Positions 37,602 to 50,339 of a DNA stretch of 64,000 nt are shown piece by piece (the first letter of the stretch is position 1; the number at the start of each line of letters is the position of its first letter). The DNA is from Collinsella provencensis (lineage in GTDB: Bacteria > Actinomycetota > Coriobacteriia > Coriobacteriales > Coriobacteriaceae): contig NZ_LT904908.1 of the NCBI RefSeq assembly GCF_900199705.1, positions 193,694 through 257,693 on the forward strand, given 5' to 3'. The position numbers and the translations under genes were made by a program. The notes under the pieces are model-generated. The model saw only the letters and a program-made list of their open reading frames with translations. It ran no database searches and was not told the origin of the DNA.

Positions 37602-40600
37602 CTACGAGGCAAAGCGGCCAGTTTCGGTCATCATGCCCATGATAGCGTGCTCGTGCTCTTTGATGCGCTCCTCATCCGCCTGCCAGCTCCAGTTGCCCGT
37701 TGCGGTGCCGGGGACGTTCATGCGTGCCTCGTCTCCCAGGTCCATGACATCTTGCAACTGCAGCATGACTAACTCGGCATCGCTTCCCAGGGCCTGGCGC
37801 ATGATGTTGTGCGCCAGATAGCTTGCACCCTCCTCATCCTGATCGGAGCAGAACGAGCGCTGGCAGAAGCCCTTGAGCGTCGAGGTGTCGTGCGTTGAGG
37901 TGTAGAGTACCTTTTCCTTATGCGGATGGATACCTTCGCGAACGTCGTAGTCGGCAAACTCAAGGACATCCATTCCGGGGAAGCCGCAGCTTGCGACCAG
38001 CGCGCGCACACCGGGCGTGAGAAGGCCCAGGTCCTCGGCGATGAGGGGCAAAGGCCCCATTTCGCGGTATGCATGCTCGAAGAACTCGATGCCGGGACCG
38101 GGAATCCATTCTCCATCGGCACCGGTTCCGCCTGCGGGGATACCGAAGTAGTTGTGGAAGCCGAGGAAGTGATCGAGTCTCACGCGGTCGTACAGTTTGA
38201 ACGCACGACGCAGGCGTGCCATCCACCACACGTAACCATCCTCGCGCATGCTGTCCCAGCGGTATGTCGGGTTGCCCCACACCTGCCCCGTGGCGGAGAA
38301 GCGATCGGGCGGAACACCTGCGATTTCGTACGGCATGCCGTCTTTGCCCAGCGAGAACATGCTGGGTTCGCTCCAAGCGTCGGCAGAGTCGTCGGAGACG
38401 TACATGGGGATGTCGCCGATGATTTGAATGCCGCGCTCGTTGGCATAGGAGCGCATGGCCTGCCATTCCTGCTCGAACTTGAATTGGGTGAACGCATGGT
38501 AGCGCGCACGCTCCGAGAAACGCGCGTCAGCGAAGATCGCAACGTTATAGCGACGTAGCTCCGCAGGCCACGTATGGCGCGCCGCCCCACCTAAAGCGTC
38601 CTTGACAGCCATGAAGGCGCAGTACGGATCGAGCCAGCCCTCGTTTTCAAGGGCGAAATCGAAGAACGCCTTGCTGGTGAATCCACCTGTTGCCTTGAAG
38701 TGACGATACGAGCTCATGAGTTCGGAGGGGTTCTCCTCAAGCAAGTTGGGGTTGCCCGCAAAGGCAGAAGGGCCGGCGTAAGGGGAACCGAACGCGTCGG
38801 TGGGATTGGCCGGAAGTACCTGCCAGTAGCGCATTCCCATGGTGACGAGATGGTCGATGAAGCGGCGAGCAGGCGCACCGAGGGTACCCGGACGTCCGTT
38901 GGAGTTGGGTACCGACGTGATGTGCGCGACCACGCCCGCGCCGCGGTCAAGCGGCTTTTGCAGGCGTTTGGTGTGGTGCATATACACGACGGACGAGCCG
39001 AGCGGGTAGAGGCGAACCTCGGCGCATCCATCCATACCGCGTTCAAGGTCAAGGCCGGAAATCAGGTCGATGGCAAAATCGCCTTCGATGGGAACGCGGA
39101 CCGAGCGCGTGTTGGTAAGGCTTCGGTTCACGATGACGTACGCAGTTTGCCCGTCAGAGCCGCGGCGTGTATAGCTCAGCACGTCATCGTTGTAGGCGTG
39201 TGCCTCGAGCGTGCCGTCGATCAGAAAGGGGAGGGCGCGACGTAGCATCGCGTTGTTGCGCACCATGATGAGCATGTCGCGATCGCGTGCATCAAACGGA
39301 GTGGGAAGGGTGCGGCGATTGCCGGGGTCCGAGAGGCCCTCAAGACCATATTCGTCGCCGTAGTAGATGGAGGGGACGCCAGGTAGCGTCATTTGCATGA
39401 GGGTGGCAAGCCAGAAACGGCCCTTGGCCAGCCCCATGGAGTTCTCGTCCAAGCGGAAGCGCCCACGCTCCTCTTCGGGAATCTGCGACTCGTCGGGGCC
39501 ACCGCCGAGAATCGAAGCGATGCGCGGCTTGTCGTGGCTGCCAAGCAGGTTGAGGCAGCAGGCCAACGCCTCGGGCGGATAGTTTTCGCGGAGCGTCTCA
39601 ATACGCTCGGCAGTTTGGTAAGCCGATTCGCCGCCGATCAGCAGACCGAGGATGGCGTCCCTGAGCGGGTAATTCATGGCGGAATCGAGTTCATCGCCCA
39701 GCAGATAGCGACGCAGTTTGCCGTAGCTCACCTTGTTGGAGGCGTCTTCCCACACCTCGCCCAGCAGCAGGCCGTCGGGGCACTCTTCGAGCATGGCCTT
39801 CTTGATTTCAGCGATGAGTTCATCGGAAAGCTCATCTGCGACATCGAGGCGCCAGCCGCGTGCTCCCGCACGCAGCCAGGTGCGAACGACGCCGTTTTCG
39901 CCCGTGATGAGCTCGTGGACAAGCTTGGAGTTCTCGTTGAGCGCAGGCATGTTCGCGATGCCCCACCATGAGTCATACGTGCCGTCTTCGTGCCAGCAGT
40001 AGGCGTCGTGCCAAGGGGAGTCTTCGCCCTGCCACGCACCGAGCTCAGGATAGGTACCGTAGCGGTTGAAGTAACGCGAGTCATCGCCCGTGTGATTGAA
40101 CACGCCGTCGAGGATGAGGGAAATGCCGAGTTCACGCGCGTCCTGCGCAAGACGGCAGAAGTCCTCTTTGGTGCCGAGCATCGGGTCGATGTTGAGGTAG
40201 TCGGCCGTATCGTAGCGATGATTGCTCAGCGCCTCGAAGATGGGGTTGAGGTAGATTGCCGTGACACCCATGCTCTTAAGTCGCGGCAGGTCTTCGCGAA
40301 TACCCTCGAGCGATCCGCCGTAGAAGTCCCAGCTCCGAATGGAGGTGTCGGGGTTGCGGTCGTAAACGGGCGGCTGGCTCCAGTTTTCAACGAGATGCTT
40401 GCCGGGTCCCTTGCGAGGCTGATCGATAACGGTCTGTGCGCGTTCGCGCCATGCTGCGTCGCGGCGATAGCGGTCGGGGAAAATCTGATACACAATACCG
40501 TGCTCGTACCATGCGGGTCGCGTTGCGCGGTGTTGGTACACGGTGATTTGGAACGAGGGAACATCTGCGCGGTCGGTATAGATAACGCCCTCGCCGCCCG

Positions 40601-40898
40601 TCGCGCCTTCGCGCGCGCCAACGCGCAGGCACGTACCGTCGCTGGTGGTGACGCAGAAGCTATACCAAACGATGCAAGGTTCGGGGCAAGGAAGTTCGGC
40701 TACGAGCGTGTTGTTGGCGCCGAGCTCCATAGGGATGAGCTGTTCTCCAACCTCGTCGATCCATGTGCGGACGGTAGCGGAAAGAAAGCTGGCGTCGGCA
40801 TCGAGAACTTGCAACGTGAGATGGACGGTAGTTCCAACAACGACGGCGCCAAAGGGTACGCGGAATTCCGATTTACGGGTGTTATGAATGAGATTCAT
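37602..40898 (-). CDS. GH13 alpha-glucosidase/neopullulanase fused to GH77 4-alpha-glucanotransferase (MalQ)
   Basis: About 1098 residues in one chain. After a starch-binding-like beta domain (residues 1-130), a GH13 barrel shows the nucleophile Asp in ARGWRLDVADEL (about 352), acid/base Glu in LLGEVWEDAS (about 380) and LLGSHDKPR (about 454), similar to neopullulanase or maltodextrin glucosidase. From about 640 a GH77 domain begins: QVLPANPTDAFGSPY, nucleophile in VRLDHFLGFHNYFG (about 906), acid/base in IAEDLGLLTPGV (about 952) and STHDTSTLKGF (about 1003). All catalytic residues are present. The frame is open for 33 more codons upstream, but those overlap the glgA terminator, so ATG 40898 is preferred. 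The enzyme should cut and disproportionate glucans released from glycogen. Confidence 0.85.
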   Translation of the reverse strand: MNLIHNTRKSEFRVPFGAVVVGTTVHLTLQVLDADASFLSATVRTWIDEVGEQLIPMELGANNTLVAELPCPEPCIVWYSFCVTTSDGTCLRVGAREGATGGEGVIYTDRADVPSFQITVYQHRATRPAWYEHGIVYQIFPDRYRRDAAWRERAQTVIDQPRKGPGKHLVENWSQPPVYDRNPDTSIRSWDFYGGSLEGIREDLPRLKSMGVTAIYLNPIFEALSNHRYDTADYLNIDPMLGTKEDFCRLAQDARELGISLILDGVFNHTGDDSRYFNRYGTYPELGAWQGEDSPWHDAYCWHEDGTYDSWWGIANMPALNENSKLVHELITGENGVVRTWLRAGARGWRLDVADELSDELIAEIKKAMLEECPDGLLLGEVWEDASNKVSYGKLRRYLLGDELDSAMNYPLRDAILGLLIGGESAYQTAERIETLRENYPPEALACCLNLLGSHDKPRIASILGGGPDESQIPEEERGRFRLDENSMGLAKGRFWLATLMQMTLPGVPSIYYGDEYGLEGLSDPGNRRTLPTPFDARDRDMLIMVRNNAMLRRALPFLIDGTLEAHAYNDDVLSYTRRGSDGQTAYVIVNRSLTNTRSVRVPIEGDFAIDLISGLDLERGMDGCAEVRLYPLGSSVVYMHHTKRLQKPLDRGAGVVAHITSVPNSNGRPGTLGAPARRFIDHLVTMGMRYWQVLPANPTDAFGSPYAGPSAFAGNPNLLEENPSELMSSYRHFKATGGFTSKAFFDFALENEGWLDPYCAFMAVKDALGGAARHTWPAELRRYNVAIFADARFSERARYHAFTQFKFEQEWQAMRSYANERGIQIIGDIPMYVSDDSADAWSEPSMFSLGKDGMPYEIAGVPPDRFSATGQVWGNPTYRWDSMREDGYVWWMARLRRAFKLYDRVRLDHFLGFHNYFGIPAGGTGADGEWIPGPGIEFFEHAYREMGPLPLIAEDLGLLTPGVRALVASCGFPGMDVLEFADYDVREGIHPHKEKVLYTSTHDTSTLKGFCQRSFCSDQDEEGASYLAHNIMRQALGSDAELVMLQLQDVMDLGDEARMNVPGTATGNWSWQADEERIKEHEHAIMGMMTETGRFAS

Positions 40899-40936
40899 GG
40901 CATCAACTGTTGGGTCGGGAATAGGACCTGCACAGT

Positions 40937-40973
40937 ATACAAAAAGACGGGAGGTGGTAAAAGCCACCTCCCG
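40937..40973 (-). terminator. Intrinsic terminator of glgA
   Basis: On the minus strand CGGGAGGTGG pairs perfectly with CCACCTCCCG (40973-40948) around 6 bases, followed by TCTTTTTG. It ends the glgA transcript 43 bases after the stop and shows that the next gene has its own promoter or depends on readthrough. Confidence 0.9.
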
Positions 40974-41015
40974 CATAGTAAATTCCAGATTGGGCAATCC
41001 GGTTATTACAGTGGG

Positions 41016-43118
41016 CTACTTACGTGCACCTTTGCGCGTTCCCTTTGCCTCGGAAACGCTCTTTGCGGGCTGCTTTTTCTGAGTCGCGGTCTTTGCTGCA
41101 GCGGTCTTTGCCGGAGCAGGTTTTGCCTCAGTTGCAGGCTTCGCCTCAACAGCTGCCTTCTTTGCTGTGCTCTTTGTGGCTGCGGGCTTTTCGTCAGCGG
41201 GCTTGGCCACGACTTCAGGTTCCTTTACGGCTTTTTTGGACGTAGCGGCCTTGGTCGTGGCCTTCTTAGCAGTCGTTGTCTTGGACGCAGTGGCCTTGGT
41301 CGTTGCAGTCTTGGCCGTGCGAGCAGGTGCTTTTGCGGCGGGCTTTTCGGCTATCGGCCCTGTCGTGCCCTCAGGTGCGTTCGTCGTTTTTGCAGCGACC
41401 GTCTTTTTCTTAGTCGCAGGCTTCTTTGCAGCGGGCTTTGCCTCAATGTCTGCAGATGCCTTTTTAGTGGTAGTCTTCGTAGCCGTCTTTTTGGTTGTAG
41501 TCTTAGCTGCGGGCTTCTTGGCCGCAGCGGTCTTGGCAGGCGTCTTCTTTGTAGGAGTCTTCTCCTCGTCCTTTTCGGGAGCGGGAGCCTCTGCCTCGTC
41601 TTTTGCAGGGGCGTCAACCGTTGCAGCTCCAGGCATCGGAATCTCGGGATGCAGGTTGTGGTAAACCGCCAGGTATTCACCGGCCGAGCGTGTCCAGCTG
41701 AAGTCCTGCTTCATGGCATTGGTGACCAGCTGATCGAAGGCTTTGCGATCATCCCAGAACAGGCGTGCCGCGCGGAATACGGTGTCGCCCAGCTCATCAC
41801 CGTTGAAGTTTGCAAACGAGAAGCCCGTGCCCTCGCCCGTGTACTGGTTGTAGGGTATGACCGTATCTTTAAGGCCACCGGTTTCGCGCACCACAGGAAG
41901 GGTGCCGTAGCGCATGGCGATGATTTGCGACAGGCCGCACGGCTCAAAGAGGGACGGCATGAGGAAGAGGTCAGCTGCGGCATACATACGCTGGGACAGT
42001 GCGGGGTCAAACTGGATGCGCGCCGCCATGGTGCCGGGGTACTTGTGCTCGAAATAACGCAGGGCGTTCTCGTATTCGGCGTCACCCGTGCCGAGCACCG
42101 CCACCTGCACGCCACCCGAGAGGATGCGGTCGAGCGCATACGTGACCAGGTCCATGCCCTTCTGGCGCGTAAGGCGCGTGACCATGACCATGAGCGGGCG
42201 GTCGTCGCGCACTTCAAGACCCAACTCCTCCTGGAGCTTTGCCTTGCAGATGGCCTTGCCCGAACGGTCGTTGACCGTGAAGTTGGCGGCGATGCGCGAA
42301 TCGGTGGCGGGGTTAAAGCCCTCGACGTCGATGCCGTTCAGGATGCCCTGCAGAATCGGTGCGCGGCGGCGCAGAAGGCCGTCGAGACCCTCACCGAACT
42401 CGGGCGTTTTGATTTCCTCGGCATAGGTGGGGGAGACGGTGGTGATGGAGTCCGTGTAATTGAGGGCTCCCTGCATGTAATTGATGGCGTCGGGCCCACA
42501 GGTGAGCTGGAACGCCGCGGCGGGAACATGGGCGAGACCCAGAATGTCGTTCAGCACCTTTGCGCTGAACTGTCCCTGGAAGGCGATGTTATGGATGGAG
42601 AACACCGTCTTGACGTTGCGATACAAAGGCGATGCCTGATAGAACTCGCGCAGGAACACCGGCGCCATGGCGGTGTGCCAGTCGTTGCAATGGAGAACAT
42701 CGCAGGTAAAGCCCTCGATAACGTTGGGGAGGTACTGCAGCGACTCGACGATGGCCTTGGAGAAGAATGCGAAGCGCTCGCCGTCGTCGAAGAAACCGTA
42801 CGGGTAGCCGCGGCTGAAATAGTGCTCGTTGTCGAGGAACAGGTAATCGACGCCCTTATGATTGAGGCGCTCGATGCCGCAGTACTCATTGCGCCAGCCC
42901 AACGGAACGTAGAAGTCGCACAGGTGCTCCATGCGGTCCTTGTACTCCTGGGCAATGGTGTCGTACTTGGGGGTGAGGACCACGACCTCGGCGCCCGCCG
43001 CCTTGAGGGCATGGGGGAGCGATCCGGCCACGTCACCCAGGCCGCCCGTTTTCACGAAAGGTGCCGCCTCTGCGCTTGCAAAGGCTACGTGCAGCTTGGG
43101 GGTTACTTCTTCAGTCAT
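41016..43118 (-). CDS. glgA: Glycogen synthase with a 204-residue histone-H1-like C-terminal tail
   Basis: About 700 residues. Residues 1-496 are a complete GT5 glycogen synthase, transferring glucose from ADP-glucose to alpha-1,4 chains: ADP-glucose loop KTGGLGDVAGSLPHAL, VLHCNDWHTA, VTRLTRQKGMDLV and the catalytic Glu region MPSLFEPCGLSQ. Normal enzymes end near residue 480. Here 204 further residues (encoded by 41019-41630) consist almost only of Lys, Ala, Thr, Pro and Glu, with repeats such as PAKTAAAKKPAAKTTTKK, resembling bacterial histone-H1-like or AlgP tails. The frame is continuous and ends at a proper terminator, so this is not a frameshift artefact. ATG 43118 after GCGGAG is preferred to ATG 43136. 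Confidence 0.92.
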   Translation of the reverse strand: MTEEVTPKLHVAFASAEAAPFVKTGGLGDVAGSLPHALKAAGAEVVVLTPKYDTIAQEYKDRMEHLCDFYVPLGWRNEYCGIERLNHKGVDYLFLDNEHYFSRGYPYGFFDDGERFAFFSKAIVESLQYLPNVIEGFTCDVLHCNDWHTAMAPVFLREFYQASPLYRNVKTVFSIHNIAFQGQFSAKVLNDILGLAHVPAAAFQLTCGPDAINYMQGALNYTDSITTVSPTYAEEIKTPEFGEGLDGLLRRRAPILQGILNGIDVEGFNPATDSRIAANFTVNDRSGKAICKAKLQEELGLEVRDDRPLMVMVTRLTRQKGMDLVTYALDRILSGGVQVAVLGTGDAEYENALRYFEHKYPGTMAARIQFDPALSQRMYAAADLFLMPSLFEPCGLSQIIAMRYGTLPVVRETGGLKDTVIPYNQYTGEGTGFSFANFNGDELGDTVFRAARLFWDDRKAFDQLVTNAMKQDFSWTRSAGEYLAVYHNLHPEIPMPGAATVDAPAKDEAEAPAPEKDEEKTPTKKTPAKTAAAKKPAAKTTTKKTATKTTTKKASADIEAKPAAKKPATKKKTVAAKTTNAPEGTTGPIAEKPAAKAPARTAKTATTKATASKTTTAKKATTKAATSKKAVKEPEVVAKPADEKPAATKSTAKKAAVEAKPATEAKPAPAKTAAAKTATQKKQPAKSVSEAKGTRKGARK

Positions 43119-43227
43119 GCAATACTCCGCATTCATTGTTTGACACGCACGTTATCGCGTGTTTGTACGAAAGATGCGCCGCCCGGCACGAGCTCAGGCG
43201 ACGCATCAAAACTAGGCGACGTCAGGT

Positions 43228-44343
43228 CTATTTGGCGCGTGCCAGGTCTTTCTTGGGGACCACGAGGACGTGGTCGGGCGTTCCGCGCAGCTCGGTTTGG
43301 GCCGGCACGGTGTTGTTCTTATCGAGGATGGCGTTCTCCACGCGGGCGCCGCGTTCGATAACGCAGCCCTGCATGATGATGGAGTTCGACACATAGGCGC
43401 CGCTCTCGACAATGACATCGCGGGACAGGATGGAGCCGCTCACGTCACCCTCGATTCGGCAACCGGCCGAAATGAAGGAGTTGCGCGTGTTGGAGCTTGG
43501 TGCATACTTCGCCGGCGGGGTATCGTGAGCCTTGGTCATGATGGGGCGCTCGTGGGTGAACAGCGCATGCATGACATCGGGATTGAGCATCTCCATGCTG
43601 CGACGGTAGTAGGTCTCCTCGTTGAACATACCGACGGCGAGGCTCTTGAACTCATAGCTGCACACATCGATACGACCGAAGTCGTTGCGAATCGCCTCAA
43701 ACAGGTCGAGGTAATCGATGCTCTCGTAGTCGTCGATGATCTGCAGCAGCAGGTCACGGTTGATGACGAAGCAGTCGAGGAACTTGTTGTCGCCATAGGA
43801 GCAGCCGCTCGCAAATGAGGTGACGCGTCCGTTCTCACCGATTTCAAGGCGTGTGATGTCGTCAAGTGCACGGTCGGCAGCGCGATAGATCATGGTAATG
43901 CCAGCGCCGCTCGTCTCATGCGATTCGATCACGTGGGCAAGATCGATGTTGAAGACGATGTTGGTGCCGCTCATAACCACATAGGGCTCAGGGGCACGCT
44001 CGAACAGGGTGCGATTCTTGATGATGTCGCGCAGCAAGAAGCGGATGCCCGTCTTAGCGGTGCCATAGGCGCTGCCTTGAAGCAGGAACAGGCCGCCCTT
44101 CTTGCGGTCGAGCTCCCACTCGCGACCGCTGCCGAGGTGGTCGACGATGGAGCGGTAGTTGGTGGGGAGTACGACGCCCACGGTGCGGATGCCCGCGTTC
44201 ATCATGTTGGAGAGCGGGAAGTCGATGAGACGATAACGGCCCATGAAGGGGCAGCTTGCGAGCGGACGGCTTTCAAGCAGAGCGCTGTGCTCCTTGCTGG
44301 AATAGTTTGCGGTGATGTAGCCGATGGCCTTACGGTTGATCAT
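43228..44343 (-). CDS. glgD: GlgD, regulatory-type ADP-glucose pyrophosphorylase subunit
   Basis: A 371-residue paralogue of GlgC. The nucleotidyltransferase fold is recognisable (FMGRYRLIDFPLSN, then SGREWELDR and a left-handed beta-helix at the C-terminus). However, the catalytic Asp region [10 protein letters not shown] of GlgC is SGTNIVFNID here and the GGxGxRL loop is absent, so it is probably not catalytic by itself. In Bacillus and relatives GlgD associates with GlgC and raises its activity. It starts four bases after the glgC stop, consistent with a heteromeric complex. Confidence 0.92.
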   Translation of the reverse strand: MINRKAIGYITANYSSKEHSALLESRPLASCPFMGRYRLIDFPLSNMMNAGIRTVGVVLPTNYRSIVDHLGSGREWELDRKKGGLFLLQGSAYGTAKTGIRFLLRDIIKNRTLFERAPEPYVVMSGTNIVFNIDLAHVIESHETSGAGITMIYRAADRALDDITRLEIGENGRVTSFASGCSYGDNKFLDCFVINRDLLLQIIDDYESIDYLDLFEAIRNDFGRIDVCSYEFKSLAVGMFNEETYYRRSMEMLNPDVMHALFTHERPIMTKAHDTPPAKYAPSSNTRNSFISAGCRIEGDVSGSILSRDVIVESGAYVSNSIIMQGCVIERGARVENAILDKNNTVPAQTELRGTPDHVLVVPKKDLARAK

Positions 44344-44347
44344 CGGA

Positions 44348-45496
44348 TCATTCCCCCTTTCCGATCACGACGTCATTTCCGACGACGGCGGTGTCCTTTG
44401 TGACGTCAACGCTACCGAGCTTGACGTTTTCCTCAACTGCGGCGTTCTCGCCCAGGATGGCGCGAACCACGTGCGCACCGTCCTTTACGACGGCGCCGGG
44501 CAGCAGGACGGAGTCCTCAACGATGGCGCGCTTGCCCACCACGCAGTCGGTGGAAAGGATGGAGTGGCGCACGGTACCATCGATACGGCAACCGTTGGAG
44601 ACCAGGCAATCGTCCAAGCGACCATCAGGTCCGATGAAGTGTGGGGGACGGGTAGTGTCGTTAGACATGATGGGGAAGGACTTGTCAAACAGGTCGAATT
44701 CGGGGTTGGCACCCAGCAGATCCATCGAAGTCTCGTGATAGCTCGCGATGGTACCGACGTCCTTCCAGAAGCCCGTGAACTTGTAGGTGAACAGGCGCTT
44801 GCCCTCGGCGAGCAGTTTGGGGATGATGTCGTTACCGAAGTCATGGCTCGAACGCTGATCGAGGGCATCGTCCTCAAGTGCTTTGACCAGGACGTCGGTC
44901 GAGAAGATGTAGATGCCCATGGATGCCAGGTTGGAATCGGGCTTCTCGGGCTTCTCGGTGAACTTCTGGATACGGTCGTCCTCGGGATCGGCGGTGATGA
45001 TGCCGAAGCGGGACGCCTCCTCCCACGGCACCGGCATGACCGAAACGGTGAGGTCGGCGTTGTGGGCGATGTGGCTCTCGAGCATCTTGCGATAGTCCAT
45101 GCGATACAGGTGGTCGCCGGAGAGAATCAGCACATACTCGGGGTCGTGACTCTTGATGAAGTCAAGGTTCTGCGTGATGGCGTCAGCCGTGCCCGCATAC
45201 CAGGCGCCGCCTTCCTGCGTAGCGTACGGAGGAAGGATCGACACACCCGCGCCGCGCTCGGCGAGATCCCACGCACGACCGGATCCAACATATTCGTGCA
45301 GCTGATAGGGACGATACTGGGTCAGCACACCCACGGTGTCGATGCCGGAGTTGGCGCAGTTCGACAATGAGAAGTCGATGATGCGGAACTTGCCTCCGAA
45401 GCTGACGGCAGGTTTGGCGATTTTAGATGTGAGCGCCCCCAACCTGCTTCCCTGTCCTCCTGCGAGGAGCATGGCGATACATTCTTTAGTTGCCAT
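44348..45496 (-). CDS. glgC: ADP-glucose pyrophosphorylase catalytic subunit
   Basis: A 382-residue enzyme making ADP-glucose from glucose 1-phosphate and ATP, the committed step of glycogen synthesis. Visible motifs are [14 protein letters not shown] (nucleotide loop), [24 protein letters not shown], the catalytic Asp in [11 protein letters not shown] and the sugar-phosphate site FTEKPEKP, with a beta-helix C-terminus. The frame is open 35 codons upstream, but that stretch encodes a leader hairpin; ATG 45496 after AAAGGGAGAG is preferred. It is cotranscribed with glgD. Confidence 0.95.
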
Positions 45497-45637: not shown

Positions 45638-48064
45638 TTACACGTGCCAGATTTCGTCGCAGTACTCGCGAATGGTGCGATCGGATGAGAACCAGCCGGA
45701 CATCGCGGTGTTGTGCAGCGAGCGACGGCTCCAGCTCTCTGCGTCGCAGTAGGTTGCGGTGAGGCGCTCCCATGCGTCCACATACGAGTGGAAATCCCTG
45801 AGAACGAGGTCATGGTCGTTGTTGAACATGAGCTCGTGGTGGATGCTCTCGAAGTTGCCCGACTGAGCGGCGAAGGTGCCGTCGACGAGCTCGTCGATGA
45901 TGCGGCCGAGGCGCGGGCGGTCGTTGTTCACGATGTCCCATGCGAAATACTGGCCGTTGGCACGCAGCTCGTTGACCTCGTCGGTGGTAAGACCGAAGAT
46001 CATCTCGTTCTCCTCGCCGGCGAACTTGACGATTTCGATGTTGGCGCCGTCCATCGTGCCCAGCGTGATGGCGCCGTTCATCATGAGCTTCATGTTCGAG
46101 GTGCCTGAGGCCTCCTTGCCCGCCGTGGAAATCTGCTCGGAGATCTCGGCTGCCGGGTAAATGAGCTGAGCGTTGGAAATGGCGAAGTTGGGGATGAAGC
46201 ACACCTTGATGAGCTCGTTCACACGCGGGTCGTTGTTGACGACATTGGCGACGCCGTTGATGAGGCGGATGACCTCCTTGGCGAAGGTGTAACTCGAGGC
46301 GGCCTTGCCGGCGAAGATGAAGGTGGTGGGCTCAACCGTGAAGTTGGGATCGCTCAGCAGGCGGTTGTAGAGGTCCATGACCTTCATGATGTTGAGCAGC
46401 TGGCGCTTGTAGGCGTGGAAACGCTTTGCCTGCACGTCGAAGATGCTGTCGGGGTTGATAACGAGGCCCAACTCGCGCTTGACGTACTTGGCGAGACGCA
46501 CCTTGTTGAGGCGCTTGGAGGTTCCGACCTGCTCGAGGAAGTCGGCATCGTGCTCGAAGGCGGTGAGCTTCTTGAGCTCGTCGGCGTTGGAGAGCCAGCC
46601 GTCGCCGATGGCACTCGTCACGAGCTTAGCGTAGCTGGGGTTCGCCTCGGCGAAGAAGCGACGGTGCGAAATGCCGTTCGTCTTGCTGTTGAACTTCTCG
46701 GGCTGGAGCGCGTAGAAGTCCTTGAGAACGGCGTTCTTGAGGATCTCGGTGTGAATCTTGGCGACGCCGTTGACGGAGTGGCTGCAGATGACGGAGAGGT
46801 TGGCCATGCGGACCTCGCCATCCCACAGAACGGCGGTGGCGCGCAGGCGCTCGGCGGCATCGGGCTGCGTCATGTCGAAGCCCTCGCGCCAGCGGCGGTT
46901 GATCTCGTCGATGATCTGGTACACGCGCGGAAGCAGCGTGGAGAACGTGGAAATGGGCCACTTCTCAAGAGCCTCAGGCAAAATGGTGTGGTTGGTGAAG
47001 GACACCGTGTGCGTCACGATCTCCCAAGCCTCATCCCATGCCAGGCCCTTCTCGTCCATGAGGATGCGCATAAGCTCGGGGCCGCACATGGCGGGATGGG
47101 TGTCGTTGGTGTGGATGGCGACGTACTTGGGCAGGTCGCTCCATGTCTCGCCATGCTCGCGCTCATAGGTGTCGAGCAGGGTGCGGATGCCGGCGGAAAC
47201 AAACAGATACTCCTGCTTGAGGCGCAGCAAACGGCCGTGTTCACCCGCGTCGTTGGGGTAGAGGATGGCGGAAATCGCCTCGGCGTTCGCACGGTCGCGA
47301 TCGGCGCCCGTGTAATCGCCAACGTTGAACGCATCGAGATCGAAATGGTCGTCGATAGGCTCGGTGCTCCAAACACGGAGCTTGTTTACGGTCGTTCCGC
47401 CGTAACCCACCACGGGGATGTCGTAGGGAACGGCCAGAACATCGTCAGTGCCCTCGACGGAGTAGACGGTGTGACCGTTCTCCTCATGTGCCACCACGTG
47501 ACCGCCAAAGCCGATGCGGACGGCCTTGTCGGGACGCTTGACCTCCCACGGATAGCCCTTGGAGAGCCATTCGTCTGCCACCTCGACCTGGCGACCGTCG
47601 CGGATCTCCTGCTTGAACAGGCCGTAACGATAGCGCATGCCGTTACCGTAGCCGGCGATGCCCTCCTGTGCCAGGGAGTCGAGGAAGCACGCGGCAAGAC
47701 GGCCCAAGCCGCCGTTGCCGAGCGCGGGGTCGGGCTCTTGGCGCTCGATGACGTCAAGGTCGCCGCCCATATCTGTAATAGCCTCGGCGACCATGTCGCG
47801 GATGCCGAAATTCAAAAGATAGTTATCGAGCAAACGGCCGATGAGGAATTCGATCGAGAAGTAATAGACACGCTTCTTGTGCTGCTTCCTGTTGCGCTCG
47901 TCGGTTTGAGCCGCAATGACGCGGGCGTCGGAAGCGATCATGTTGACCAGAGCGGTGAAGCGATCGAGGTCGCTTGCGTTTTCGAATTCCTTACCGGACA
48001 GACCGCGCACGCTTTGGCGGTACTGCTCGATAAATTGCTCCTTGCTTTCGAAAATCTTTTCCAT
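45638..48064 (-). CDS. glgP: Glycogen phosphorylase
   Basis: An 808-residue GT35 enzyme releasing glucose 1-phosphate from glycogen ends with pyridoxal phosphate. Signatures: ALGNGGLGRLAACFLDS, the phosphate/substrate region THTVSFTNHTILPEALEKW and the PLP lysine in EASGTSNMKLMMNGAITLG. Length is normal and it has no tail, unlike GlgA and GlgB. ATG 48064 with AGAAGGG upstream is preferred to a longer frame. It lies inside a cluster of synthesis genes, so synthesis and breakdown may be coexpressed and controlled at enzyme level. Confidence 0.95.
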   Translation of the reverse strand: MEKIFESKEQFIEQYRQSVRGLSGKEFENASDLDRFTALVNMIASDARVIAAQTDERNRKQHKKRVYYFSIEFLIGRLLDNYLLNFGIRDMVAEAITDMGGDLDVIERQEPDPALGNGGLGRLAACFLDSLAQEGIAGYGNGMRYRYGLFKQEIRDGRQVEVADEWLSKGYPWEVKRPDKAVRIGFGGHVVAHEENGHTVYSVEGTDDVLAVPYDIPVVGYGGTTVNKLRVWSTEPIDDHFDLDAFNVGDYTGADRDRANAEAISAILYPNDAGEHGRLLRLKQEYLFVSAGIRTLLDTYEREHGETWSDLPKYVAIHTNDTHPAMCGPELMRILMDEKGLAWDEAWEIVTHTVSFTNHTILPEALEKWPISTFSTLLPRVYQIIDEINRRWREGFDMTQPDAAERLRATAVLWDGEVRMANLSVICSHSVNGVAKIHTEILKNAVLKDFYALQPEKFNSKTNGISHRRFFAEANPSYAKLVTSAIGDGWLSNADELKKLTAFEHDADFLEQVGTSKRLNKVRLAKYVKRELGLVINPDSIFDVQAKRFHAYKRQLLNIMKVMDLYNRLLSDPNFTVEPTTFIFAGKAASSYTFAKEVIRLINGVANVVNNDPRVNELIKVCFIPNFAISNAQLIYPAAEISEQISTAGKEASGTSNMKLMMNGAITLGTMDGANIEIVKFAGEENEMIFGLTTDEVNELRANGQYFAWDIVNNDRPRLGRIIDELVDGTFAAQSGNFESIHHELMFNNDHDLVLRDFHSYVDAWERLTATYCDAESWSRRSLHNTAMSGWFSSDRTIREYCDEIWHV

Positions 48065-48161: not shown

Positions 48162-50339
48162 TTACACGCGCTTCGTTCGGGCAGTCACCTTCTTGGTCTT
48201 CGAGGCTGCTGGCTTGGTTTTCGCACGCGCTGGAGTCGTCTTCCTTGTAGTCGCTGCGGACTTGGTCGCAGAAGATGTCCTTGAAGGTAGCTCGGCCGGT
48301 TTGTACGAAGATTTGCGACGGCGCTTGTATACCAGTCCCGCAAGGCCGGGAACTGAGATCTCAATGGAGTCATCGCGGCCATTCCATGGCTCGGGTTTGG
48401 ACGAGGCCATCTCGACCTTGGCATACCCGGATCCACCGAACTCGGGTTCATCGGTGGAGAACACGAGCTCCCAGTCACCCTCGCGTGGAACGCCGACCTT
48501 GAAGGTCTTATAGGAAGCGGGATCGAAGTTGATGAGGATGAGCAGATCGTCGGAAGGACGATTGCCGTGACGCACAAAGCTCACGATGGACTGATCCACG
48601 TTGTTGGCGTCGATCCATTCGAAACCCGTTTCGTCGTAGGCGTGGGTCCACAGGGCGCGCATGCGCGTGTAGAAGTGGTTGAGTGCGGCGACGAAGCGCT
48701 GCTGGCCGCCATGAAGCTCGAATTGCTCAGCGAGGAACCATTCGATTGACTCGTAGTAGCGCCATTCGATTTGCTGGGCGATTTCGTTGCCCATGAACGA
48801 GAGCTTCGCGCCCGGATGCATCATCTGATAGAACATGAGCGTGCGCAGGCCGGCAAAACGACGCCAGTCGTCGCCCGGCATACGGCCGATGAGCGAGCAT
48901 TTGCCGTTCACGACCTCGTCGTGTGAGAGCGGCAACACGAAGTTCTCGCTAAAGGCATACATGATCGAGAACGTGAGAAGGCTGTGGTTGCCGGGGCGCC
49001 ACGGGAAATCGCACTGCATATAGTGCAGGGTGTCGTTCATCCAGCCCATGTCCCACTTGAAGTGGAAGCCGAGGCCGCCGTTTTCGGCCGGGTAGGTCAC
49101 CAGGGGCCACGCGGTGGATTCCTCGGCGATCATCATCACGCCGGGGAACTCGCGTCCCACAGCGCAGTTGACCTGGCGGATAAAGGCGGATGCGTCGAGG
49201 TCTTCCTCGGTGCCGTACTTATTGAACTTCTTGTCTGCGGGATTATCGACGCCGAAGTTGAGATAGAGCATGCTCGAAACGCCGTCCATGCGGATGCCGT
49301 CGGCATGGAAGAGTTCGACCCAGAACAGCGCGTTGGACACGAGGAAGCTGCGGACCTCGGGGCGGGAGAAATCGAACTTGTGCGTGCCCCAATTGGGATG
49401 GATCTCGTGCTCGAAGAGCATTTCTCCGTTGAAGGTCGCAAGACCCTCGGCGTTGGCGCAAAAGCCTCCGGGGACCCAGTCGAGGATCACGCCGATGCCG
49501 GTGCGATGACATGCGTCGACGAAGTGCATGAGCTGCTGTGGGGTGCCATAACGCGAGGTGGCAGCGTAGTATCCCGTTACCTGGTAACCCCATGACCCGT
49601 CGAAGGGGTGCTCCATGAGGGGCATGAGCTCGATGTGGGTGTAACCCATTTCCTTTACATAGGCGACGAGCTCTTGAGACAGGTCGTCATAGGTGTAGTA
49701 GGTGCCGCGCTGCGCGGGGAAGGGGTCGCCCGGACCGGGGTAGGTGCCGTCCTCACGCGGTTCGCCCTGCGGCTCATTGCCGTGGCGATGCCAGGAGCCC
49801 AGATGGACTTCGTAGATGTTGAGGGGGCTTGCCATGAGGTCGCGCTTATCGCGTTTCCGAATCCACGCTGCGTCCTTCCAGGCATAGCCCGAGAGGTCCC
49901 AAAGTTTCGAGGCAGTACCGGGTGGGGTCTCAGCATAGAATCCAAAGGGATCGGCTTTCCAGAGAAGCGTGCCGTCCGCGGTTTCGATTACATACTTGTA
50001 AAGCTCTCCCGCTTCAAGCCCGGGAACGAAGCCCTCCCAGATGTCGCTTTGATTGGCGCGGGAAAGCGGGGTTGCCCGCGGGTCCCAGTCGTTGAAATCG
50101 CCTGCCACGTGGACGCTGGTGACGTTGGGAGCCCATACGCGGAACAGCCAACCTTCACGCTCGTTTTGAATATCGCGATGTGCGCCCATCTTCTCCCAGG
50201 CACGCTGCCATGTGCCTGCCGAGAACATGTGGATATCGTCATTGGTGAGTATGAGGTTGGGACAGAGATTTGCCGTGCGCGCAGTTCGCTTGGATTGAGA
50301 TTTAGATAGTGCTGATTTGGGAGCCGATGCTTTGGCCAT
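48162..50339 (-). CDS. glgB: Glycogen branching enzyme with basic N- and C-terminal tails
   Basis: About 725 residues. The enzyme cuts alpha-1,4 chains and re-attaches them in alpha-1,6 linkage. After an N-terminal beta domain (RVWAPNVTSVHVAGDFNDWD), the GH13 barrel shows the nucleophile in DGIRMDGVSSMLYL, the acid/base in MMIAEESTAWP and LPLSHDEVV. The C-terminal beta domain ends at LAGLVYKRRRK. Beyond it lie about 50 residues rich in Lys, Arg, Ala, Thr and Ser (encoded by 48165-48323). The first 25 residues are also basic (MAKASAPKSALSKSQSKR). ATG 50339 preceded by GGAAGG is preferred over longer frames. It is the first gene of the glycogen cluster. Confidence 0.9.
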   Translation of the reverse strand: MAKASAPKSALSKSQSKRTARTANLCPNLILTNDDIHMFSAGTWQRAWEKMGAHRDIQNEREGWLFRVWAPNVTSVHVAGDFNDWDPRATPLSRANQSDIWEGFVPGLEAGELYKYVIETADGTLLWKADPFGFYAETPPGTASKLWDLSGYAWKDAAWIRKRDKRDLMASPLNIYEVHLGSWHRHGNEPQGEPREDGTYPGPGDPFPAQRGTYYTYDDLSQELVAYVKEMGYTHIELMPLMEHPFDGSWGYQVTGYYAATSRYGTPQQLMHFVDACHRTGIGVILDWVPGGFCANAEGLATFNGEMLFEHEIHPNWGTHKFDFSRPEVRSFLVSNALFWVELFHADGIRMDGVSSMLYLNFGVDNPADKKFNKYGTEEDLDASAFIRQVNCAVGREFPGVMMIAEESTAWPLVTYPAENGGLGFHFKWDMGWMNDTLHYMQCDFPWRPGNHSLLTFSIMYAFSENFVLPLSHDEVVNGKCSLIGRMPGDDWRRFAGLRTLMFYQMMHPGAKLSFMGNEIAQQIEWRYYESIEWFLAEQFELHGGQQRFVAALNHFYTRMRALWTHAYDETGFEWIDANNVDQSIVSFVRHGNRPSDDLLILINFDPASYKTFKVGVPREGDWELVFSTDEPEFGGSGYAKVEMASSKPEPWNGRDDSIEISVPGLAGLVYKRRRKSSYKPAELPSRTSSATKSAATTRKTTPARAKTKPAASKTKKVTARTKRV

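Follow-up and report, generated by a model that had tools for sequence, protein, structure and literature searches.

Introduction

Histone-like tails have a known role in placing storage granules. PhaM, PhaF and AlgP carry such tails, by which granules of PHB or polyphosphate are distributed along the nucleoid (PMC13052382). AlgP has KPAA repeats, and the protein associates with polyphosphate granules (PMC9239181). Among DNA-binding proteins, removal of the PAKK/KAAK tail of HupB abolishes its association with the nucleoid (PMC5676037), and the TopA of actinobacteria is held more stably on DNA by its lysine repeats (PMC7398561). In E. coli, glycogen forms a condensate at the old pole, where it pushes the nucleoid aside and makes inheritance biased (PMC12706056, PMC4836754). 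Glycogen is absent from a 2025 review of how organelles are positioned (PMC13052382), and our own literature search, which covered few subscription journals, found no report of such tails on glycogen enzymes.

Here we analyse a glycogen gene cluster in a stretch of 64,000 nucleotides (the window, whose numbering is used throughout) from a Collinsella genome of 1.74 Mb. The nearest named relatives are C. stercoris and C. intestinalis, with GlgB identities of 85–86%. By analogy with the systems above, Collinsella and its relatives, which are gut bacteria belonging to the Coriobacteriales, may anchor glycogen to DNA by means of a tail on the branching enzyme, GlgB.

The glg cluster and its proteins

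All genes of the cluster are on the minus strand, in the order glgB, glgP, glgC, glgD, glgA, followed by a GH13-GH77 fusion. They were assigned from open reading frames and Pfam, with PDB matches in addition for GlgB and GlgA. The gene glgB (48162..50339) encodes a glycogen branching enzyme of 725 residues (GH13 with CBM48), and glgA (41016..43136) a glycogen synthase of 706 residues (GT5). Between them are glgP (45638..48064, glycogen phosphorylase), glgC (44348..45496, ADP-glucose pyrophosphorylase) and glgD (43228..44343, a GlgC-like subunit). The gene downstream of glgA (37602..40997) encodes a single protein of 1131 residues, in which a GH13 amylase-type domain is fused to a GH77 4-alpha-glucanotransferase (MalQ). 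None of these last four proteins has a tail.

The start of GlgB was placed at the ATG at 50339, which has a ribosome-binding-like GGGAAGG just upstream; the frame stays open upstream of this ATG as far as 50558. The protein scores above the Pfam cut-off for PF02922 (CBM_48), PF00128 (Alpha-amylase) and PF02806 (Alpha-amylase_C), and it matches GlgB of known structure with an E value of 8e-186. The Pfam scan found in GlgB neither a phasin family or other dedicated granule-associated N-terminal domain, the N-terminal part being branching enzyme, nor the HU fold (PF00216). GlgA contains Glyco_transf_5 and glycosyl transferase group 1 domains, and matches the glycogen synthase structure 1rzu with an E value of 6.5e-89. 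Both cores are ordinary and complete, and belong to neither the phasin nor the HU family.

The ordered core of GlgB comprises residues 30–675 (48315..50252, minus strand): solved GlgB structures align to residues 30–672 only, and AlphaFold predicts structural elements over residues 33–675. Beyond it lies a lysine-rich C-terminal tail, residues 675–725 (48165..48317, minus strand), with the sequence RKSSYKPAELPSRTSSATKSAATTRKTTPARAKTKPAASKTKKVTARTKRV. These 51 residues include 16 K/R and one D/E, and the predicted pLDDT is below 50 at residues 687–725. The basic C-terminal tail of about 50 residues described in an earlier, sequence-only reading of this DNA is therefore confirmed. That reading had also reported a basic tail at the N-terminus. 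Such a stretch is present in this genome, at residues 1–29 (50253..50339, minus strand; it contains MAKASAPKSALSKSQSKRTARTA), and is predicted to be disordered (pLDDT below 50 at residues 1–25), but it is neither conserved nor reliably basic in relatives. Among them, the N-terminal extension is confined to the Coriobacteriaceae in which GlgA is tailed, where it is often neutral or acidic and its median net charge is 0, start codons having been chosen by a simple rule for this comparison. In Atopobiaceae GlgB begins about 14 residues ahead of the core. The N-terminal stretch was for these reasons discarded as a second conserved arm.

The tail of GlgA (residues 496–706; 41019..41651, minus strand) is much longer. 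Solved structures align to residues 17–495 only, and residues 505–706 all have pLDDT below 50, except for residues 646 and 651. It is a disordered chain of about 210 K/A/T/P/E residues, with 50 K/R against 19 D/E, and is thus similar in make-up to the GlgB tail, as had been claimed. Comparison with relatives shows a difference in character. GlgA tails are chains of mixed charge, usually acidic at the start and basic at the end, whereas GlgB tails are uniformly basic. A strongly conserved motif at the end of the GlgA tail was considered and rejected, as it is seen in close groups only (identity 0.87, against 0.66 in the rest of the tail); across the family the terminal segment has an identity of 0.40, against 0.43 for the rest of the tail.

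Species distribution and order of origin

The clusters of Coriobacteriales and outgroups were examined, at about 150 loci in all, and counts were taken from the 121 distinct clusters that have all five genes. A tail was defined as at least 12 residues with a net charge of +5 or more. On this definition both GlgB and GlgA are tailed in 49 clusters, GlgB alone in 56, GlgA alone in one, and neither in 15. No tails were found on GlgP, GlgC or GlgD in any of the 121 clusters, nor on GlgX-MalQ in 72, and the earlier statement that only the polymer-building enzymes are tailed holds well beyond this genome. The same reading took the two tails to occur together, and this does not hold: among the 106 tailed clusters, more have the GlgB tail alone than have both.

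The single GlgA-only case, L114, retains a GlgB extension of 53 residues that has lost its net charge. In this Collinsella locus the GlgB tail is now of mixed charge (+11/−8), and the GlgA tail has been kept. A frameshift does not account for the odd GlgB tail, the other frames yielding no lysine-rich tail. In a few Atopobiaceae the GlgB tail is very short, at 12–18 residues.

A tree was calculated with FastTree from the five concatenated cores. Some outgroup branches are long, but which tail came first does not depend on them. A single change accounts for the GlgA tail, on the branch leading to all Coriobacteriaceae except a sister genus (L058, L066, L069). That genus already carries the GlgB tail, which also occurs across the Atopobiaceae (Olsenella, Thermophilibacter, Parafannyhessea and others), so that the GlgA-tailed clade is nested inside an older GlgB-tailed clade. 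As judged from the tree, the GlgB C-terminal tail is old, being found in nearly all sampled Coriobacteriaceae and Atopobiaceae, and the GlgA tail arose once, later, within the Coriobacteriaceae. The two tails therefore differ in age as well as in character. This is a caution of some generality: two enzymes encoded together may carry tails that look paired in a single genome and yet differ in age and character.

The same set of glgB, glgP, glgC, glgD and glgA is found in Oscillospiraceae (Bacillota; L230–L241), with GlgB identities of about 50–56%, and may reflect transfer between phyla. These outgroup copies have no comparable tail on GlgB or GlgA, and the outgroups make glycogen without a GlgB tail. 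No tails were found on 14 branching-enzyme paralogues from these and related genomes.

Selection on the tails

Substitution rates were obtained from disjoint pairs of close relatives, picked greedily by distance. In the GlgB tail, gain or loss of a basic residue occurs at 0.0061 per opportunity, compared with 0.0335 for interchange among A, P, S and T, and 0.0603 for synonymous change. Ka/Ks in this tail is 0.35. Mutation bias was removed by comparing a single type of mutation, A/G at codon position 1, which gives either A↔T or K↔E. Over all pairs, there were 81 A↔T changes in 1136 opportunities and only 9 K↔E changes in 787 (p = 4e-11). Over pairs of equal length aligned with no gaps, the numbers were 32/438 and 1/328 (p = 2e-7); these p-values serve as guides only, because pairs picked greedily are only approximately independent. 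The ungapped pairs exclude an alignment artefact as the source of the constraint, since they leave the aligner nothing to choose. Purifying selection thus keeps the positive charges of this tail, and the small residues between the lysines drift. This selection on lysine in the tail is a new result.

The constraint is equally strong where GlgA is tailless (A↔T 31/566, K↔E 3/398), from which it follows that the GlgA tail is not a required partner of the GlgB tail. In the GlgA tail itself the bias is weak (A↔T 150/2002, K↔E 51/1190), and for this tail only one ungapped pair exists.

Composition and similar tails in the genome

Pooled GlgB tails contain 28% A, 25% K, 12% T, 10% P and 8% S, with a K/(K+R) ratio of 0.85, and aromatic residues are rare. 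Basic residues 4–5 apart are about twice as frequent as expected. In composition and in lysine spacing these tails can be described as histone-H1-like, as in AlgP, HupB and TopA.

A protein search of the same genome with the GlgA tail returned only the tail itself, low-complexity queries being uninformative, and scans of composition were used instead. Within 458 kb of sampled sequence, with about 351 predicted genes (an approximate number, since gene calling was heuristic), long basic C-terminal regions rich in K, A, T, P and S were found, at the cut-off applied, only on GlgA, GlgB and a YgiQ-like protein. Such tails are therefore more than a matter of chance. A pattern search of the whole genome added TopA (DNA topoisomerase I), at its C-terminal tail, and an FtsQ-like protein, in its N-terminal part. 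In composition the tail of TopA is similar to those of GlgB and GlgA (cosine 0.83–0.96). In a sample from a genome of the C. aerofaciens type, long tails of the same kind are present on TopA, GlgB, GlgA and a small proline-rich membrane protein.

The lysine-repeat tail of TopA lies after the zinc-finger region (L159, at about 945145 on C3 of this genome, and L272:3227-5803). The FtsQ-like protein has a long N-terminal part that is basic and rich in K, A, P and S, and the YgiQ-like protein, a radical-SAM protein, has a basic C-terminal end (L158, at about 533231 on C3 of this genome; L134:14397-16418).

It is worth adding that the HU family (PF00216) gave no match in this genome or in any of 60 sampled Coriobacteriales genomes, whereas it is represented in 9 of 14 control genomes. 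If confirmed, this would make the Coriobacteriales an order without the commonest bacterial nucleoid protein.

Possible functions of the tails

On the basis of these observations, we hypothesise that the C-terminal tail of GlgB acts as a disordered, histone-H1-like lysine array that would grip a cellular polyanion with no sequence specificity, most likely the DNA of the nucleoid. The core of the branching enzyme would hold the growing glycogen, and the tail would therefore anchor the glycogen-making complex to the nucleoid. Anchoring would help to keep the glycogen particles dispersed and passed on together with the chromosomes, in the way that PhaF and PhaM serve PHB and AlgP serves polyphosphate. 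GlgA would have joined later, in the Coriobacteriaceae, with a long flexible tail of mixed charge and a basic tip. As a whole, we consider this scheme to have slightly less than an even chance of being correct. Its parts are not equally secure: that the GlgB tail binds a polyanion is fairly likely, that its partner is DNA is about an even question, and the positioning of granules by the tail may follow, by analogy.

A tether of this kind is suggested by the predicted disorder, the selection on charge, the independence from GlgA, the H1-like pattern, the likeness to the TopA tail of this genome, the tailless branching-enzyme paralogues and the precedent of PhaM, PhaF and AlgP. Against it are the very short tails of a few Atopobiaceae, the loss of charge in L114 and the outgroups that make glycogen with tailless enzymes. 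In addition, the FtsQ-like and YgiQ-like proteins of this genome are also basic-ended, and are not simple DNA binders.

Taken further, Coriobacteriaceae and Atopobiaceae might tie glycogen to the nucleoid through the GlgB tail, reinforced later by GlgA in the Coriobacteriaceae, with glycogen shared out along with the chromosomes and not gathered at the old pole, where E. coli has it. This we put forward tentatively, as a possibility with the chances somewhat against it. Nucleoid-anchored glycogen would be a departure, because the glycogen of E. coli displaces the nucleoid.

The partner could also be another polyanion, such as RNA or ribosomes, polyphosphate or an acidic membrane surface, which would concentrate GlgB in a condensate or on a surface. 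The composition does not point to DNA in particular, because tails rich in K, A and P bind many polyanions: lysine arrays are unspecific, and a constraint on charge alone suits any of them. Lysine tails of the HBHA type bind sulphated glycans; composition by itself does not fix the ligand. For RNA, the large excess of lysine over arginine and the scarcity of aromatic residues place the tail nearer to those of H1 and TopA than to RNA-binding regions of the RGG type. The association of AlgP itself with polyphosphate granules (PMC9239181) favours polyphosphate, but no match to the polyphosphate kinase PPK1 (PF02503) was found in this genome. We regard a partner of this kind as rather unlikely.

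A matched pair of tails, bringing GlgB and GlgA to one common partner on the glycogen particle, was the function originally suggested. Of the enzymes in the cluster these two alone are tailed, the acidic start of most GlgA tails could contact the basic GlgB tail, and the lengths of the two tails are weakly correlated (Spearman 0.45, n = 31, in a thinned set uncorrected for kinship). The charges of the two tails, however, showed no correlation among the relatives compared, and in the 56 clusters with a GlgB tail alone the selection on lysine is undiminished. These 56 clusters lead us to reject pairing as the original function. A shared partner or common site is a possibility that survives from the suggestion, since GlgA tails arose only in GlgB-tailed lineages, but the matched pair as such is improbable.

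The tails could instead be chains for solubility or spacing that have no fixed partner, either entropic bristles or carriers of lysines whose modification tunes activity. Their length (23–271 residues in GlgB and 94–458 in GlgA) and their residue order vary widely, and K↔E change is accepted far more readily in the GlgA tail than in the GlgB tail, as expected of a loose chain. In GlgB, selection removes charge reversal and leaves interchange among A, T, P and S nearly free. This speaks against a spacer, because a mere spacer needs no net positive charge, and we think the explanation distinctly improbable. Drift of a functionless low-complexity sequence by DNA slippage would suit the variable length and the permissive termini, but is hardly credible, as the repeats in the DNA are only weak arrays of 15–21 bp with mixed codons, not a microsatellite, and the low Ka/Ks, the strong constraint on lysine and the persistence through two families also stand against it.

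Comparison with known systems

If the nucleoid tether proposed here is correct, it would be a glycogen counterpart of PhaF, PhaM and AlgP that is built into a biosynthetic enzyme. In the study of how bacterial glycogen is placed and shared, the GlgB tail is a concrete and easily deleted candidate for positioning, found across two families of Coriobacteriales.

The enzymes have the same cores, in the same cluster, as ordinary bacterial GlgB and GlgA, whose solved structures reach only residues 672 and 495, respectively, of the proteins described here. In HupB there is a similar C-terminal tail of the PAKK/KAAK type, but it is attached to an HU fold, whereas here it is attached to a glycogen enzyme. 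Actinobacterial topoisomerase I is alike in that a tail of lysine repeats has been added to an enzyme core, and the TopA of this genome has such a tail, but the substrate of TopA is DNA and that of GlgB is glycogen. The H1-like tail has here been added to a metabolic enzyme and not to a DNA-binding protein.

PhaF, PhaM and AlgP are bound to a storage polymer and have a disordered, H1-like C-terminal tail of lysine, alanine and proline, which in AlgP and PhaF is required for, or believed to mediate, the spacing of granules and contact with DNA. The tail of GlgB is of this type in its predicted disorder (pLDDT below 50), composition and spacing. They are dedicated granule-associated proteins on PHB or polyphosphate, whereas GlgB builds the polymer itself and its DNA binding is putative. 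GlgB is thus not itself one of the known tethers; what we propose is that its tail would act like one, linking the glycogen granule to the nucleoid.
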